DNA from: Miniimonas arenae
Lineage (GTDB): Bacteria > Actinomycetota > Actinomycetes > Actinomycetales > Beutenbergiaceae
Reading direction: 5' to 3'
NCBI RefSeq assembly: GCF_006351005.1
Contig: NZ_VENP01000017.1
Coordinates: 1 to 59,940, forward strand
Length of the DNA: 59,940 nt
The first letter of the stretch is position 1; each line of letters begins with the position of its first letter. A program made the position numbers and the translations under genes. This document shows positions 40,534-50,416 of the stretch, in pieces. The notes beneath the pieces were generated by a model, which was not told where the DNA came from, did no database searches, and saw nothing but the letters and a program-made list of their open reading frames with translations.

Positions 40534-41535
40534 CTACCGCACCAGAGACCTCAGGGCCTCGACCCGGCGCTTCGCCGTCTGCAGGTCGGCCCCCGTCAGG
40601 TGCCGCCACCCTTCAGCACGCATCTCGGGCACGGAGCATCGCGATCGGAGGTCCGCAATCCGCTCGAGCACCTCGGTGGGCGTTCGCGGGTCGGCCGGCG
40701 CCGGCTTGCCCGCCAGCGCCCGCAGCACGCCGAGCACCTCGTCGGCGACCCCGGGTCCCGCGTCCTCGTACGCGAACCGGACCGTCGGGACGCCCAGGCG
40801 CAGTGCCGCTCGGTCGCGGCGCCGATCAGCGGCGAACTGCGGTCGGAGGTGGTGGAACTCGTACCCGTCGATCTCGACGTCAAGCACACCGTCGACCAGC
40901 AGATCGACCTCGCCGACTCCCGGCACCGACACGTTGGGGGCGACAGCCAGCCCCACCCGGCGCAGGTCGAGACGGACCTGCGTCTCGACGGCCGACCTGC
41001 TGCTGGGGTCGACGTCGACGGCGAAAGCTCTCGCCCTGCTCGGACTCGTCCGCCGCACCATCGCGAACACCTCGTCGCGCACGGCGTCGGGCCGCTGGTG
41101 CAGAGCACGGTCGAGAGTCGCGACCGCAGAGTCGTACGGCAGGCAGAGCGCGGCCCGAGCCGCCGCCGCGGCGAAGGTGGTGACGGGGAGCACGGGATGC
41201 CGATCGGCGTCCTCGTAGTGCTGCCGGACCTTCGCCGCGCGAGCTGCTCCCGCGCGGGTCCCACGGCCTCGCGGAACGGAGACGTGGACGACGGACTCAT
41301 CGCCCGGCACGTCGACCTGCCAACGGCGCAGCGCCGACACACACCCGAGAACCCCGCCCGCCGCGACGGCCGTCCGGACGTCGTGGTCGACGTCCGGCAG
41401 TGCGTACGCACCTCGCCCGATCCGCACGATCTCCCCGGTAGCCAATGCGCGATCGAGCTCCCGCCGCGACACCGACAGATCCCTCACCTGTGCCGCGCCA
41501 CCGCGTCTACGGAGTTCACGACGTAGATCAGTCAT
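40534..41535 (-). CDS. AbiEi-like N-terminal domain plus DUF559/endonuclease-like C-terminal domain
   Basis: A 333-aa protein. The N-terminal ~55 residues (ELRRRGGAAQVRDLSVSRRE, LDRALATGEIVRIGRGAYAL) are the winged-helix type seen in AbiEi antitoxins of type IV toxin-antitoxin systems. The middle (ALRRWQVDVPGDESVVHVSV) matches the same architecture. The C-terminal part (VDLLVDGVLDVEIDGYEFHH, then DRRRDRALRLGVPTVRFAYED-like) has the D..ExDG.xxH..R..D..R layout of DUF559/Vsr-like nucleases. No AbiEii toxin partner is adjacent. Starts at 41547, 41544 and 41535 are all possible; a 13-bp palindrome covers the first two. DNA binding and possible nuclease activity are inferred. Confidence 0.78.
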   Translation of the reverse strand: MTDLRRELRRRGGAAQVRDLSVSRRELDRALATGEIVRIGRGAYALPDVDHDVRTAVAAGGVLGCVSALRRWQVDVPGDESVVHVSVPRGRGTRAGAARAAKVRQHYEDADRHPVLPVTTFAAAAARAALCLPYDSAVATLDRALHQRPDAVRDEVFAMVRRTSPSRARAFAVDVDPSSRSAVETQVRLDLRRVGLAVAPNVSVPGVGEVDLLVDGVLDVEIDGYEFHHLRPQFAADRRRDRAALRLGVPTVRFAYEDAGPGVADEVLGVLRALAGKPAPADPRTPTEVLERIADLRSRCSVPEMRAEGWRHLTGADLQTAKRRVEALRSLVR

Positions 41536-41538
41536 GAG

Positions 41539-41551
41539 TGTCATCATGACA
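41539..41551. promoter_or_regulatory. palindrome TGTCAT-C-ATGACA at the start of the AbiEi-like gene
   Basis: A perfect 6+1+6 palindrome overlaps the two upstream candidate ATG codons. AbiEi antitoxins repress their own promoter by binding inverted repeats, so this is a candidate operator; if true, the downstream ATG 41535 is the likelier start. Confidence 0.45.
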
Positions 41552-44547: not shown

Positions 44548-45867
44548 TCAGTGCGCCGACGGCGAGGAGCTCGCCACCGGACCGTCGAAGGACGCCGCGT
44601 ACTCCTCGTACCACGCGCGCTCCTCGGCCACCAGGGGGTGGGCGGCGGCGTACGCGTGGTCGAACATCACGGTCGCGGGCGGCTTGGTGAGCGCCCGGCA
44701 GTAGGTGCGGACGGCGGCCGCGAGCTCACGCGCCTCGCCGTCCACGCCGTCCAGGAACTCCTGGGTGGCGAGTCCCTCGGCGAGCAGCAGGGTGCGCAGA
44801 CGGTCGATCGGGTCACGACGACGCCACGCCTCCTCCTCGGCACGCTCGCGGTAGCGGGTGGGGTCGTCGGACGTGGTGTGCGCGCCCATCCGGTAGGTGA
44901 CCGCCTCGACGAGGACGGGCCCGGCACCCGAGCGGGCGTGCTCGAGCGCGACCTCGGTGACGGCGCGCACGGCCACGACGTCGTTCCCGTCGACGCGGAA
45001 CGCACGGATGCCGAAACCGGCGCCACGGTCCACGAGCGGGACGGTGGTCTGCACAGTGGTGGGCGCGGAGATCGCCCACTGGTTGTTCTGGCAGAAGAAG
45101 ACGACGGGTGCCGAGACCGTCGAGGCGAAGACGAACGCCTCGTTGACGTCGCCCTGGGCGGTGGCACCGTCGCCGAAGTAGGCGACGACGGCGCGGTCGC
45201 GCTCGGGGTCGCCGGTGCCGACGTCGCCGTCGCGCTGGATGCCCATCGCGTAGCCCGTGGCGTGCAGCGTGTGCGAGCCGATGACGAGCGTGTACAGGTG
45301 GAAACCGTGCGCAACGGGGTCCCAGCCGCCCTGCGCGATGCCGCGGAAGATCGGGAGCAGCTCGCGCAGGTCGACGCCGCGCACGTGCGCGACGCCGTGC
45401 TCGCGGTAGGACGGGAACACGTGGTCGCGGGGGCGCAGTGCGCTGCCGGACCCGATCTGGGCGGCCTCCTGGCCCCGGCACTCGGGCCACAGCCCGAGCT
45501 CACCCTGCCGCTGCAGGCTCGTGGCCTCGCGGTCGAACTCGCGCACCAGCACCATGTCCCGGTACATCGCCCGCAGGTCCTCGCCCGTGAGGCGGTCGGC
45601 CTCGGCGCGGACGGCGGGATCGACGACGGCGAGCATCGCCTCCGGCACCCGGCTCCCCTCGGGTGCGACGAACCGGATGGTGCCGGCGACCTCGCACGGG
45701 TCCGGCCACGGCACGGCGGTGTCGGACTGGTCGGCGGGGGTGCTGGTGGCGTCGGCGGCGGCGGGGGTGGTGCCGGAGGGGGTGGCGCTGGTGCCGAAGG
45801 GGGTGGTGTCGGCGGGGGGCACAGGATCGACGGTGCTTGCGTCGACCTGCTCGACGTCGGTCTCCAA
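44548..45867 (-). CDS. 2-oxoacid dehydrogenase E1 component, alpha subunit
   Basis: A 439-aa thiamine-diphosphate-binding subunit. The ThDP motif is YFGDGATAQGDVNEAFVFAS, with CQNNQWAISAPTTVQT closing it. Other marks are CRGQEAAQIGSGSALRPRDH, VLVEAVTYRMGAHTTSDDPT (phosphorylation-loop region) and YRERAEEEAW. The first ~50 residues are a Thr/Ala/Pro-rich extension absent from most family members. Start TTG 45867 with AGGAG nine bases upstream is the best-supported site. First gene of the E1alpha-E1beta-E2 operon; three spaced palindromes lie 63-104 bp upstream. Confidence 0.94.
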   Translation of the reverse strand: METDVEQVDASTVDPVPPADTTPFGTSATPSGTTPAAADATSTPADQSDTAVPWPDPCEVAGTIRFVAPEGSRVPEAMLAVVDPAVRAEADRLTGEDLRAMYRDMVLVREFDREATSLQRQGELGLWPECRGQEAAQIGSGSALRPRDHVFPSYREHGVAHVRGVDLRELLPIFRGIAQGGWDPVAHGFHLYTLVIGSHTLHATGYAMGIQRDGDVGTGDPERDRAVVAYFGDGATAQGDVNEAFVFASTVSAPVVFFCQNNQWAISAPTTVQTTVPLVDRGAGFGIRAFRVDGNDVVAVRAVTEVALEHARSGAGPVLVEAVTYRMGAHTTSDDPTRYRERAEEEAWRRRDPIDRLRTLLLAEGLATQEFLDGVDGEARELAAAVRTYCRALTKPPATVMFDHAYAAAHPLVAEERAWYEEYAASFDGPVASSSPSAH

Positions 45868-45929
45868 CGGACTGGTCTCCTCTCGCGCCTACCGCCACGG
45901 GGGCGGGTGGGAGGGTGCGGCGCCGAACC

Positions 45930-45971
45930 TACGCTCCCGTAACCTACGTCATCGTAGCCTACGGCACCGTA
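45930..45971. promoter_or_regulatory. three TACG-N4-CGTA sites at exact 15-bp spacing upstream of the 2-oxoacid dehydrogenase operon
   Basis: TACGCTCCCGTA (45930-45941), TACGTCATCGTA (45945-45956) and TACGGCACCGTA (45960-45971) share arms and differ in the middle four bases. They are separated by ACC and GCC. They lie 63-104 bp upstream of TTG 45867, in promoter range. The spacing and conserved arms argue for cooperative binding by a regulator of this operon, perhaps Lrp-like; the protein is not identified. Confidence 0.65.
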
Positions 45972-46118
45972 ACCACGACCAGGACCCGTGGTCAACGGCA
46001 CACCCGGCGTGTCGGCTCGATCGCGGGCGCAGCGCTCGGGCCGCGACGCCTGTCGGGCACGCTCGCACTCCGAACGCTGACTTGCGGTTACGCACCGCCA
46101 TCGAACGCCGGGATCCGG

Positions 46119-46496
46119 TCAGCGATGGGCTGGTGCCAGCGATCTGTGCCGGCTTCGGGCTCCAGAACGGCACAGATCGCTGGGTTTACGCCGCCGGGTT
46201 CGGGTCGACTGTGGCTCGTGCCAGCGTTCTGTGCCGGCTTCGGGCTCCAGAACGGCACAGATCGCTGGGTTTACGCCTCACACCGGGACAGATCGCTGGG
46301 TTCGGCCCGACGGTGGGCTGGTGCCAGCGATCTGTGCCGGCTTCGGGCTCCAGACCGGCACAGATCGCTGGATCCACGCCTCACACCAGGACAGATAGCT
46401 GGGTTCACGCCCGGGACCGAGACAGATCGCTGGGTTCAGTCGGCGATGGGCAGGCATCAGCGATCTGTGCCGGCTTCGGAACGGATCAGATCGCGG
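46119..46496. repeat. array of hairpins and half-sites built on CCAGCGATCTGTGCCG
   Basis: Three full hairpins share 16-bp arms CCAGCGATCTGTGCCG/CGGCACAGATCGCTGG and a near-identical 16-nt loop (GCTTCGGGCTCCAGAA). They lie at 46136-46183, 46221-46268 (one mismatch) and 46324-46371. Single half-sites lie at 46285-46299, 46388-46402 and 46419-46433. A degenerate fourth hairpin at 46458-46496 overlaps the aminotransferase stop codon. GGGTTYACGC and CTCACACC link the units. The 618-bp space 45868-46485 otherwise holds no gene; short frames through the repeats are not coding. Confidence 0.9.
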
Positions 46497-47574
46497 AGTC
46501 GCGGTACTCCGCCGCCACCGCAAGCACGATGTCGTTGGCCTCACGCTCACCGATGCTGACGCGGACGCCGTCGCCCGCGAACGGCCGCACCAGCACCCCC
46601 GACTCCGCGAACGCCCGCGCGAGCACCCCCGCCTCGTCGCCCACCGGGAACCACACGAAGTTGCCCTGCGCCTCGGGGATGTCCCAGCCCTGGGCACGCA
46701 GACCGGCCACGACGCGCTCGCGCTCGTCGACGATCGCGTCCACGCGCTCCATGAGCTGGTCGTGCGCCCGGAGCGACTCCAGCGCCGCGACCTGGGCCAG
46801 CGCGTTCACGCCGAACGGGGTCGAGGTCGCGCGGAACCCCGACACGAGCCGCGAGCGCCCGAGCGCGAACCCCACCCGCAGACCCGCCAGCCCGTAGGCC
46901 TTGGAGAAGGTGCGCAGCAGCACGAGGCGAGGGTCCTCGCGAAGGATCGCGACGCCGTCGGCAACGGGCTCGTCCTCGTCCTGCTTCCGGACGAACTCGA
47001 TGTAGGCCTCGTCGAGCAGCACCATGACGTCCGGGGGCAGCGCGGCGAGGATCCGGCGCACCTCGGCGTCGGTGAGAGCGGGTCCGGTCGGGTTGTTCGG
47101 CGAGCACAGCAGCACGGCCTTCGTGCGCGGCGTGATGGCGGCGATCATCGCGTCGACGTCGTGCCGCCCGTCGGGCAGCAGCGGCACCGGCACGCCGGTG
47201 GCGCCCGCCACCGCGACCGCGATCGGGTACGCCTCGAACGACCGCCACGGGTACACGACCTCGTCCCCGCGCTCGCAGAGCGCGGCGAGGATCGACTCCA
47301 GGACGGCCACCGACCCGTTGCCGACGACGACCTGGTCGACGTCGAGCCCGAACATCGTGGCGATCGCCTCGACGAGCTCGCCCGCGAGCATGTCCGGATA
47401 GCGGTTGAGGTCCGCGGCGGCGTCGGACACGGCGGCCACCACCCGCGGCAGCGGCGGGTACGGGTTCTCGTTCGACGACAGCTTCTCGTTCATCGTCCCG
47501 CGCGGGCGCGCGCCGGGGACGTAGGCGGGCAGCGAGATCACCTGGTCGCGCAGTCGGACCTTCTTGGCAGCCAT
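46486..47574 (-). CDS. histidinol-phosphate/aromatic aminotransferase-like PLP enzyme
   Basis: A 362-aa class-II-type aminotransferase of the HisC/Pat group. Visible motifs are KLSSNENPYPPLPRVVAAVS near the start, NRYPDMLAGELVEAIA, VVGNGSVAVLESIL, LLCSPNNPTGPALTDAEV and MVLLDEAYIEFV. The PLP lysine lies in RTFSKAYGLAGLRVGFALG and the substrate Arg in FAGDGVRVSIGE. HisC and the aromatic transaminase Pat cannot be told apart from this; no other his genes are nearby, which favours Pat. ATG 47574 (MAAKKVRLRDQ) is preferred to a GTG nine codons upstream. Its last codons overlap the hairpin array. Confidence 0.9.
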   Translation of the reverse strand: MAAKKVRLRDQVISLPAYVPGARPRGTMNEKLSSNENPYPPLPRVVAAVSDAAADLNRYPDMLAGELVEAIATMFGLDVDQVVVGNGSVAVLESILAALCERGDEVVYPWRSFEAYPIAVAVAGATGVPVPLLPDGRHDVDAMIAAITPRTKAVLLCSPNNPTGPALTDAEVRRILAALPPDVMVLLDEAYIEFVRKQDEDEPVADGVAILREDPRLVLLRTFSKAYGLAGLRVGFALGRSRLVSGFRATSTPFGVNALAQVAALESLRAHDQLMERVDAIVDERERVVAGLRAQGWDIPEAQGNFVWFPVGDEAGVLARAFAESGVLVRPFAGDGVRVSIGEREANDIVLAVAAEYRDSAI

Positions 47575-47654
47575 GGAGCAAGGATGCCCGACGGCGAGCA
47601 CGCCCCGGGCGGGTCTCTCGCCGCCCGGAGGGGCCGGGTGCGAGGATGGCCGGC

Positions 47655-48050: not shown

Positions 48051-48056
48051 CGCCGG

Positions 48057-48164
48057 CCGTACCCGCCACGCGAGCCGTACCAGCCACGCGAGCCGTACCA
48101 GCCACGCGAGCCGGACCAGCCACGCGAGCCGTACCAGCCACGCGAGCCACACCGGCCACACCAG
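48057..48164 (+). repeat. six tandem 18-bp units after the holin-like gene
   Basis: Units of CCGTACCAGCCACGCGAG start at 48057, 48075, 48093, 48111, 48129 and 48147; two are identical to the consensus, three differ by one base or so, and the last is diverged. They begin seven bases after the stop at 48050. Read on the minus strand they would encode repeating hydrophobic LAWLVR, but nothing else supports a gene there. Confidence 0.88.
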
Positions 48165-50126: not shown

Positions 50127-50204
50127 CGCGCCCCGTGTGCACGACGCCGAGCGCCCCCTCGCCCGGCCGGGCTGGGGACAGCCCGCGCCCCGTGTGCACG
50201 ACGC
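50127..50204 (+). repeat. two copies of a 21-bp repeat in the purB leader region
   Basis: CGCGCCCCGTGTGCACGAC plus GC occurs at 50127-50147 and again at 50184-50204, 57 bp apart. GTGCAC inside is a small palindrome. It precedes the 60-bp tandem duplication. Confidence 0.75.
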
Positions 50205-50211
50205 GGTCGGC

Positions 50212-50331
50212 CGCCGTCGCACCCACCGCCCCACCACCAGCCGCACCGCGGACGCGACACACGCCGTCCGGCGCCGTCGCACCCACCACCCCACCACCAG
50301 CCGCACCACGGACGCGACACACGCCGTCGGG
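50212..50331 (+). repeat. 60-bp tandem duplication upstream of purB
   Basis: 50212-50271 and 50272-50331 match with only a few differences (for example GCCCC versus ACCCC, and CCGCGG versus CCACGG). GGACGCGACACACGCCGTC recurs in each. The array lies in the 323-bp space between the WXG-like gene and purB, which contains no gene. It must sit in or near the purB promoter. Confidence 0.85.
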
Positions 50332-50416
50332 CGCTCGCCACGCACGCACGACCCGACCGCCGCCCGTCCCGCGGACGCGACGCCGCGCCGTCGGGCGCAT
50401 GCGGGAGAATGCCGCC

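Follow-up and report, generated by a model that had tools for sequence, protein, structure and literature searches.

Fourteen dispersed sites in the genome of Miniimonas arenae carry arrays of a single 16-bp word, CCAGCGATCTGTGCCG, whose copies (arms) stand in both orientations at nearly constant spacing, and each arm of this family of arrays (F1) keeps to the consensus by itself, with pairing between arms adding no extra constraint. Arrays built on other words occur in three other genera of the same bacterial family, and in one of these, genus g8, array copy number differs between genomes at orthologous sites. From these sequence comparisons we put at about even the chance that the arrays are helically phased binding sites of a candidate DNA-binding protein, which would contact single arms on duplex DNA from one helical face and would play a boundary role at gene ends.

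The Array Downstream of hisC

The window, the whole stretch of 59,940 nucleotides of M. arenae (genome G000) that was analyzed, contains 11 arms of the 16-bp word at 46136-46497, between hisC and the gene for 2-oxoacid dehydrogenase E1 alpha, both of which lie on the minus strand. Matches to the arm with at most three mismatches number 10 in the window, against a mean of 1.8 and a maximum of 5 in 100 shuffles. The arms and adjoining features are the following, with distances measured from start to start.

44548..45867, minus strand: gene for the E1 alpha subunit of 2-oxoacid dehydrogenase, lying downstream of the array; narrowly passes the cut-off of NCBIfam TIGR03181
46136..46151, plus strand: arm 1, left side of hairpin 1; consensus, 0 mismatches
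46168..46183, minus strand: arm 2, right side of hairpin 1, 32 bp on; 0 mismatches
46196..46406, no strand: 103-bp unit in 2.1 tandem copies (88%), a tandem-repeat match and recent duplication within the array
46221..46236, plus strand: arm 3, left side of hairpin 2, 53 bp back to back with arm 2; 1 mismatch
46253..46268, minus strand: arm 4, right side of hairpin 2, 32 bp on; 0 mismatches
46284..46299, minus strand: arm 5, lone, same direction, 31 bp after arm 4; 1 mismatch
46324..46339, plus strand: arm 6, left side of hairpin 3, 40 bp back to back; 0 mismatches
46356..46371, minus strand: arm 7, right side of hairpin 3, 32 bp on; 0 mismatches
46387..46402, minus strand: arm 8, lone, 31 bp on; 3 mismatches
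46418..46433, minus strand: arm 9, lone, 31 bp on; 2 mismatches
46457..46472, plus strand: arm 10, left side of decayed hairpin, 39 bp back to back; 1 mismatch
46482..46497, minus strand: arm 11, decayed, overlapping the hisC stop codon; 4 mismatches
46486..47601, minus strand: hisC, histidinol-phosphate transaminase, its 3' end meeting the array (NCBIfam TIGR01141 and PRK03321.1, over cut-off)

The first-pass annotation of this DNA had described three long hairpins, three lone half-arms and one decayed hairpin, and this inventory is correct: the hairpins lie at 46136-46183 (16 of 16 pairs), 46221-46268 (15 of 16) and 46324-46371 (16 of 16), the lone half-arms at 46284-46299, 46387-46402 and 46418-46433, and the decayed hairpin, whose arms carry 1 and 4 mismatches around a 9-nt loop, at 46457-46497. 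Its description of the spacing as irregular was mistaken, as the gaps are 31, 32, 39-40 and 53 bp, plus 25 bp in the decayed unit. The annotation also held that the last copy had invaded the stop of hisC; the final 12 bases, 46486-46497 (Ser-Ala-Ile-stop), do lie inside the decayed arm, though the later arrival of arm 11 is something we infer.

Other repeats share this neighborhood. Upstream of the E1 alpha gene, 45926-45974 of the window holds three CTACG-N4-CGTA inverted repeats at a 15-bp pitch, similar CTACG...CGTAG repeats occur between hisC and E1 alpha in 9 of 10 relatives, and the repeats upstream of E1 alpha are probably a conserved operator. An 18-bp tandem repeat of 5.8 copies (93%) occupies 48056-48159, and a 60-bp tandem repeat of 3.2 copies (84%) occupies 50201-50398, near the start of a gene that resembles adenylosuccinate lyase by eye.

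Dispersal and Spacing of F1

F1 is defined as the array family of this word in G000, a draft of 3.40 Mb in 148 contigs that is 99.7% complete. A genome-wide search with a 15-mer returned 74 matches at no more than two mismatches, as compared with 10 for the reversed control, and the family amounts to 14 clusters and 76 arms, found in the window and in 13 of 17 fetched regions (L040, L041, L042 and L045 lack a cluster) after two overlapping arm calls in L032 were dropped from an initial 78. The clusters lie on 14 different contigs, and the supposition that only the hisC locus might have such an array is therefore false. A covariance model of the hairpin recovered the same 14 clusters and, among its best 150 candidates in G000, no other at E < 0.1. 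Contigs C70 and C124 start within an F1 array, as is expected where repeats break an assembly.

Arms that point in the same direction follow one another at 31 bp, start to start, in 29 of 31 gaps and at 30 bp in the other two, while convergent arms are separated by 32 bp in 20 of 22 cases (25 and 39 bp in the others) and the nine back-to-back gaps measure 39, 39, 40, 41, 41, 41, 41, 52, and 53 bp. Clusters typically take the form (+)n(-)m, with same-direction runs converging on a center and sometimes with several such groups in series; the smallest is one inverted pair (L039). Arms of both orientations are present in all 14 clusters, unlike in CRISPR arrays, where direct repeats all point one way, are separated by unrelated spacers and lie close to cas genes, and no cas gene was found among the 26 genes flanking F1 clusters. 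The first-pass view that the array is not CRISPR-like stands.

Information content is high across most of the 16 bp, and weaker conservation reaches about 6 bp outwards, which holds for the 25 outermost units as well. In 181 between-cluster pairs of 20 hairpins, the arms are 86% identical and the loops 51%, the latter against 28% for shuffled loops, so that common descent or a weaker constraint extends past the arms. It had been claimed from the window alone that the loop is kept as well as the stem; this is true of the copies there, which are at least partly the product of the 103-bp duplication, but not between clusters. Selection on the loop was thus set aside, the tandem duplication in the window and the divergence of loops elsewhere making it unnecessary as an explanation of the constant loop.

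That duplication, and the identical spacer copies found in some clusters (L032, L038, and L044), are what would be expected if the arrays were neutral tandem-repeat debris homogenized by slippage and gene conversion. Such an origin is nonetheless very improbable in our estimation, given that arms are kept while loops and spacers diverge, that the same-direction pitch is held in all but two of its gaps, and that families built on other words also run at a 30-32-bp pitch.

Constraint on Single Arms

The array folds strongly as RNA (z = -8), and structured RNA was among the readings offered by the first-pass annotation. RNA hairpins serving as multi-hairpin terminators or as mRNA 3'-end stabilizers of the upstream gene would suit this fold and the position of arrays after stop codons, as well as the simple hairpin that stands after hisC in genome G004 instead of an array and the co-variation of paired arms in genus g8 described below. 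In F1, however, there is no covariation excess: across 20 hairpins (2 of the 22 convergent pairs, of odd loop length, were excluded), standard pairs between arms make up 89.1%, as against 89.2% for shuffled partners, and the covariation score is 0.073 in both the observed and the shuffled sets. Because F1 arms pair no better than shuffled partners, it is the single sites that look constrained and not an RNA fold. Moreover, same-direction lone arms cannot pair mutually, cluster L043 lies between divergent genes, and a helical spacing period belongs to duplex DNA. An intrinsic terminator is a GC hairpin followed by a T run, and a scan of 45860-46560, confined to the array of the window, turned up nothing of this type; the only Rfam match in the window is one tRNA. 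Structured RNA is not supported in F1, g8 notwithstanding, and we consider hairpin function at the RNA level an improbable account of the arrays.

Genes at the Borders of the Arrays

Genes in this high-G+C genome were called with a simple codon-position script and named from profile scans, and by these calls the F1 arms are mainly extragenic. Both neighbors are known for 12 clusters, of which seven lie between codirectional, four between convergent and one (L043) between divergent genes; the remaining two, at contig ends, come after a stop codon. A gene 3' end lies on at least one side of 13 of the 14 clusters, and in 10 of these 13 the array starts no more than 62 bp from the stop codon. Among 148 background gaps of at least 80 bp, 64% are codirectional, 12% convergent and 24% divergent, and finding one or fewer divergent sites among 12 has a probability of 0.16 at 25%; the 3'-end bias is weak and the depletion of divergent gaps non-significant.

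In profile scans of genes near the arrays, INO1 scored above its cut-off and an MshA-like protein below it, a gene content (mycothiol pathway) that, with the high G+C, points to an actinobacterium. No transposase or recombinase was found by such scans among the 26 genes flanking F1 clusters, three of which matched no family (one against both libraries, the other two against NCBIfam alone). Within the window, the minus-strand gene at 40534-41547 encodes a protein whose N-terminal domain is of the AbiEi_4 antitoxin type and which also matches the nuclease-like MTES_1575 below threshold, and a relative of it, a DUF559/AbiEi-type gene in L042, contains one stray arm-like match. Proteins of this type were considered as partners of the arrays and rejected, as phmmer over the open frames of most of the fetched DNA gave three members with no array association seen.

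Lineage Restriction and Arrays of Other Words

F1 itself is narrowly distributed and is probably private to its species or genus. A degenerate pattern of its hairpin matched 1 of 396 genomes of the order, namely G000, and had no matches in the genome_contigs and viral_contigs collections, which may leave out this or close genomes and in which the genus is otherwise unrepresented; BLAST of the array against phage and plasmid records likewise found nothing. The covariance model also weakly matched 14 relatives (best 150 candidates per genome), with the best E value, 0.005, in G001, where the underlying DNA holds no array. In the 700 bases 3' of hisC the F1 array is absent from each of 10 relatives: G004 has a plain hairpin there, G001 another gene, and G023 arms of its own word, so that both G000 and G023 have arrays between hisC and E1 alpha but each in a word of its own. 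No description of actinobacterial arrays of this type was found in the open-licence papers searched. A table of RepRanger has rows for three Actinomycetota genomes (PMC12306157).

Arrays on the same plan, written in different words, were found in three further genera of the bacterial family and, as a second array family (F2), in G000; four of these five array families run at a 30-32-bp pitch. An inverted-cluster search at three mismatches proved too noisy, and lag tests were used instead. In G023, a complete genome of genus g10, the word GCCGAGCGTGTGGTT has 134 matches at no more than two mismatches, against 22 in the control; in the 22 clusters examined, which include a few likely coding coincidences (e.g., at 1017603 and 3107735), 12 of 23 same-direction gaps measure 31 bp and 17 of 21 convergent gaps 45 bp. 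The word of F2, GAGCGCTGGGTTGTGGTCA, has 22 matches against none in the control, with same-direction gaps of 30-32 bp in 9 of 10 cases (the other is 56) and convergent gaps of 33-35 bp in all seven. Its sites in G000 are the following.

C1:133218-133363
C1:189848-189963
C59:52425
C69:17839
C83:29358
C127:70860

In genus g5, the word CGACTGTCACGTTCTGCACG of G005 has 18 matches against none in the control, with same-direction gaps of 30-31 bp (7 of 7) and convergent gaps of 36 bp (8 of 8), while its congeners G004 (6 matches, control 1) and G006 (3 matches, control 0) have scattered copies only. Ten of the 18 matches fall within about 65 kb of G005 (C1:3251769-3316279), whereas the F1 clusters are spread over 14 contigs. 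One array was seen in G004, with the word CCGAGTTCGGGGTTTG at a pitch of 19 bp and with 32 and 63 bp between groups. In genus g8, the word AGCCAGATCGACGTGCAATT has 16 matches in G014, 20 in G015, 47 in G016 and 63 in G019, two each in G017, G018, and G021, and none in G020, all with controls of 0. The layout is not universal, since a 200-kb sample of each of G001 and G022 contained no convincing array.

When the six consensus words are read with their 3' ends toward the array center, their similarity is 137, as compared with 120.4 +/- 4.5 for shuffled words (2 of 3000 as high), and 1 of 31 other choices of orientation scored as high; as the consensus words were chosen after inspection, this likeness is suggestive only. 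One candidate for a site shared between genera, F2 on C69 of G000 and positions 1878230-1879251 of G023, was rejected because the two arrays stand on opposite sides of the response-regulator gene, and no array was found near ino1 or prs of G023 in the sampled stretches. We therefore make no general claim of sites common to genera.

Helical Phase and Array Dynamics in Genus g8

Gaps vary in g8, and the phase of spacing is therefore testable there. A Rayleigh test was applied to the places listed for G014, G015, G016, and G019, leaving out gaps above 110 bp. Same-direction gaps (n = 20) have a best period of 10.55 bp at a phase of about 0 (R 0.81, p about 2e-6), and opposed gaps (n = 31: 19-20, 29-32, 38-41, 51, and 91 bp) a best period of 10.3 bp (R 0.90, p about 2e-11), with neither fit reached in 20000 uniform simulations. 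Copies of g8 arrays are non-independent, and the true strength consequently lies between these levels and those obtained when each gap value is counted once (p 0.003 for same-direction and 0.001 for opposed gaps). The nine back-to-back gaps of F1 fit 10.5 bp with p 0.003. Only in g8 is the ladder of about 10.4 bp strong; F1 has nearly a single pitch. The 30-32-bp pitches of F1, F2, G023, and G005 fit three turns, and the 19-bp pitch of G004 fits poorly. Proteins bound to duplex DNA are expected to give a helical period, which neither an RNA hairpin nor a copied element is.

Orthologous sites in g8 differ in array copy number. At one site, G016 has a single arm, between convergent genes with stops 26 bp apart, and G019 an array of 99 bp bounded by TGGTC repeats, the flanks being 92-94% identical; at another site, with flanks 81% identical, G016 has three arms and G015 two. 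In a further comparison, of L329 with L334, homology covers just one of the sides and the case is not clean. Gain and loss are indistinguishable at these sites without an outgroup. The main result against the protein-array reading also comes from g8, where 30 of the 31 opposed pairs (all but the pair with the 91-bp gap) match at 18.7 of 20, as compared with 17.5 when partners are shuffled, a value reached in 0 of 5000 shuffles. Paired arms share variants there, which indicates that, in contrast to F1, copying or retention acts on the pair as a whole.

Copying of this kind leads to the strongest rival explanation, in which the arrays are REPIN-like mobile hairpins: an inverted pair would be copied by a putative transposase, the arrays would be nested or tandem copies, and the spacing would follow from enzyme binding or insertion. 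The first-pass suggestion of a small mobile palindrome finds partial backing in the same observations, namely the dispersal of F1 to 14 sites with one pair as the smallest cluster, the absence of the array after hisC in all 10 relatives, and the copy-number differences in g8, to which may be added the lineage-specific words and F1 loops that resemble each other more than shuffled loops do, as common descent would give. However, the Y1_Tnp domain (PF01797) of REP-associated transposases was looked for and not found in G000, G004, G005, G014, G015, G016, G019, or G023, and the genes flanking F1 clusters include no transposase. The F1 array was not found in phages, plasmids or viral contigs; a search of plasmids for the g8 array was also negative, and viral contigs yielded neither the g8 nor the G023 word. 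An arm on its own does not form a stable palindrome, same-direction runs are many, and a 10.4-bp gap ladder is unexpected of a copied hairpin. We regard REPIN-like copying as a somewhat unlikely explanation that nevertheless carries real weight; by analogy with REP systems, it may hold together with protein binding.

Comparison with Known Repeat Systems

The arrays resemble the BIME/REP arrays of E. coli and other Proteobacteria, which are likewise intergenic, dispersed, species-specific, of variable length, and made of regularly spaced units in alternating orientation, the last feature being present in F1 as spacings of 31, 32, 39-41, and 52-53 bp. REPs and BIMEs have been reported to bind gyrase, IHF and Pol I and to facilitate Rho-dependent termination (PMC2817692), and REPs have been proposed to be mobilized by RAYTs and also bound by host proteins (PMC2817692, PMC3116915). 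The differences are several. A REP unit has a palindrome of its own, but of seven arms folded singly the best reached -2.3 kcal/mol and none went beyond shuffles, the nearest being the G004 arm (z -1.7, with 13 of 200 shuffles as good). There is no consistent GTAG end tag, with GTAG/CTAC in 2 and CGTC/GACG in 6 of the 76 F1 arms (within 6 bp). Copy number usually exceeds 100 per genome in REP/BIME systems, compared with 76 arms in F1 and, in G023, the 134 matches over a control of 22; F1 also has long same-direction runs at 31 bp. A RAYT (PF01797) was found neither in G000 nor in 23 of the 24 family genomes, the only PF01797 genes in these 24 being G003:C119:1494-1847 and C481:6385-6783. As the palindrome, the end tag and the RAYT all fail, we do not file the arrays as REP, BIME-like though they are in layout.

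REPINs are similar in that the smallest cluster is an inverted pair and in that g8 arms co-vary, as has been reported of REPIN arms (PMC3116915). They differ in that here no RAYT was found, F1 arms lack co-variation, extra single arms are common, and g8 gaps come in steps of about 10.4 bp.

Phased operator, iteron and centromere arrays consist of direct repeats at whole turns that load protein on one face of the DNA, and they sit at one or a few control loci. Separation of sites by whole helical turns is also seen here, in the g8 Rayleigh test and in the 30-32-bp spacing of F1, F2, G023, and G005, with G004 fitting poorly; however, F1 comprises 14 dispersed arrays, mostly near gene 3' ends, whose arms run toward a center of symmetry. 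Inverted pairs of DNA uptake sequences have lineage dialects and occur at gene 3' ends. They differ from F1, which has fewer copies (76 arms), a longer word, and multi-copy arrays at a fixed pitch.

A Candidate Boundary System at Gene Ends

Of the three readings that the first-pass annotation offered, multi-site protein binding is the best supported, by the constraint on single arms, the pitch kept despite diverged spacers, the absence of covariation in F1, and the g8 ladder. Each arm, with its 16 bp and about 6 bp outwards, would bind one unit of a putative sequence-specific protein on duplex DNA. Arms stand at approximately whole helical turns, 31 bp being about three turns and the back-to-back gaps four to five, and because they run to a center of symmetry the bound proteins might form one cooperative, roughly two-fold symmetric complex. 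Just after stop codons, such a complex could act as a boundary, whether as a roadblock, a terminator or an insulator of supercoiling, all of which have been discussed as roles of E. coli BIMEs. The arrays would grow and shrink by units, and the word would drift fast between lineages while the layout stays.

More tentatively, and with the balance of probability against it, we propose that one actinobacterial family may mark some of its gene ends with phased arrays that load a fast-evolving candidate protein. From genus to genus the geometry (a pitch of about 31 bp and a center of symmetry) persists under changing words, from which it would follow, in that reading, that the protein co-evolves with its sites throughout the genome and that no REP transposase takes part, making this its own kind of chromosome-architecture or transcription-boundary system. 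REP/BIME-like repeats have been known for decades and their function is still debated. In the work cited here they are tied to Y1 transposases (PMC2817692, PMC3116915), and non-palindromic phased sites for which no such transposase was found would separate a "selfish hairpin" from a "protein-loading platform." If the proposal is true, lineages that use different words on one plan would constitute a natural experiment in the co-evolution of a DNA-binding protein and its dispersed sites.
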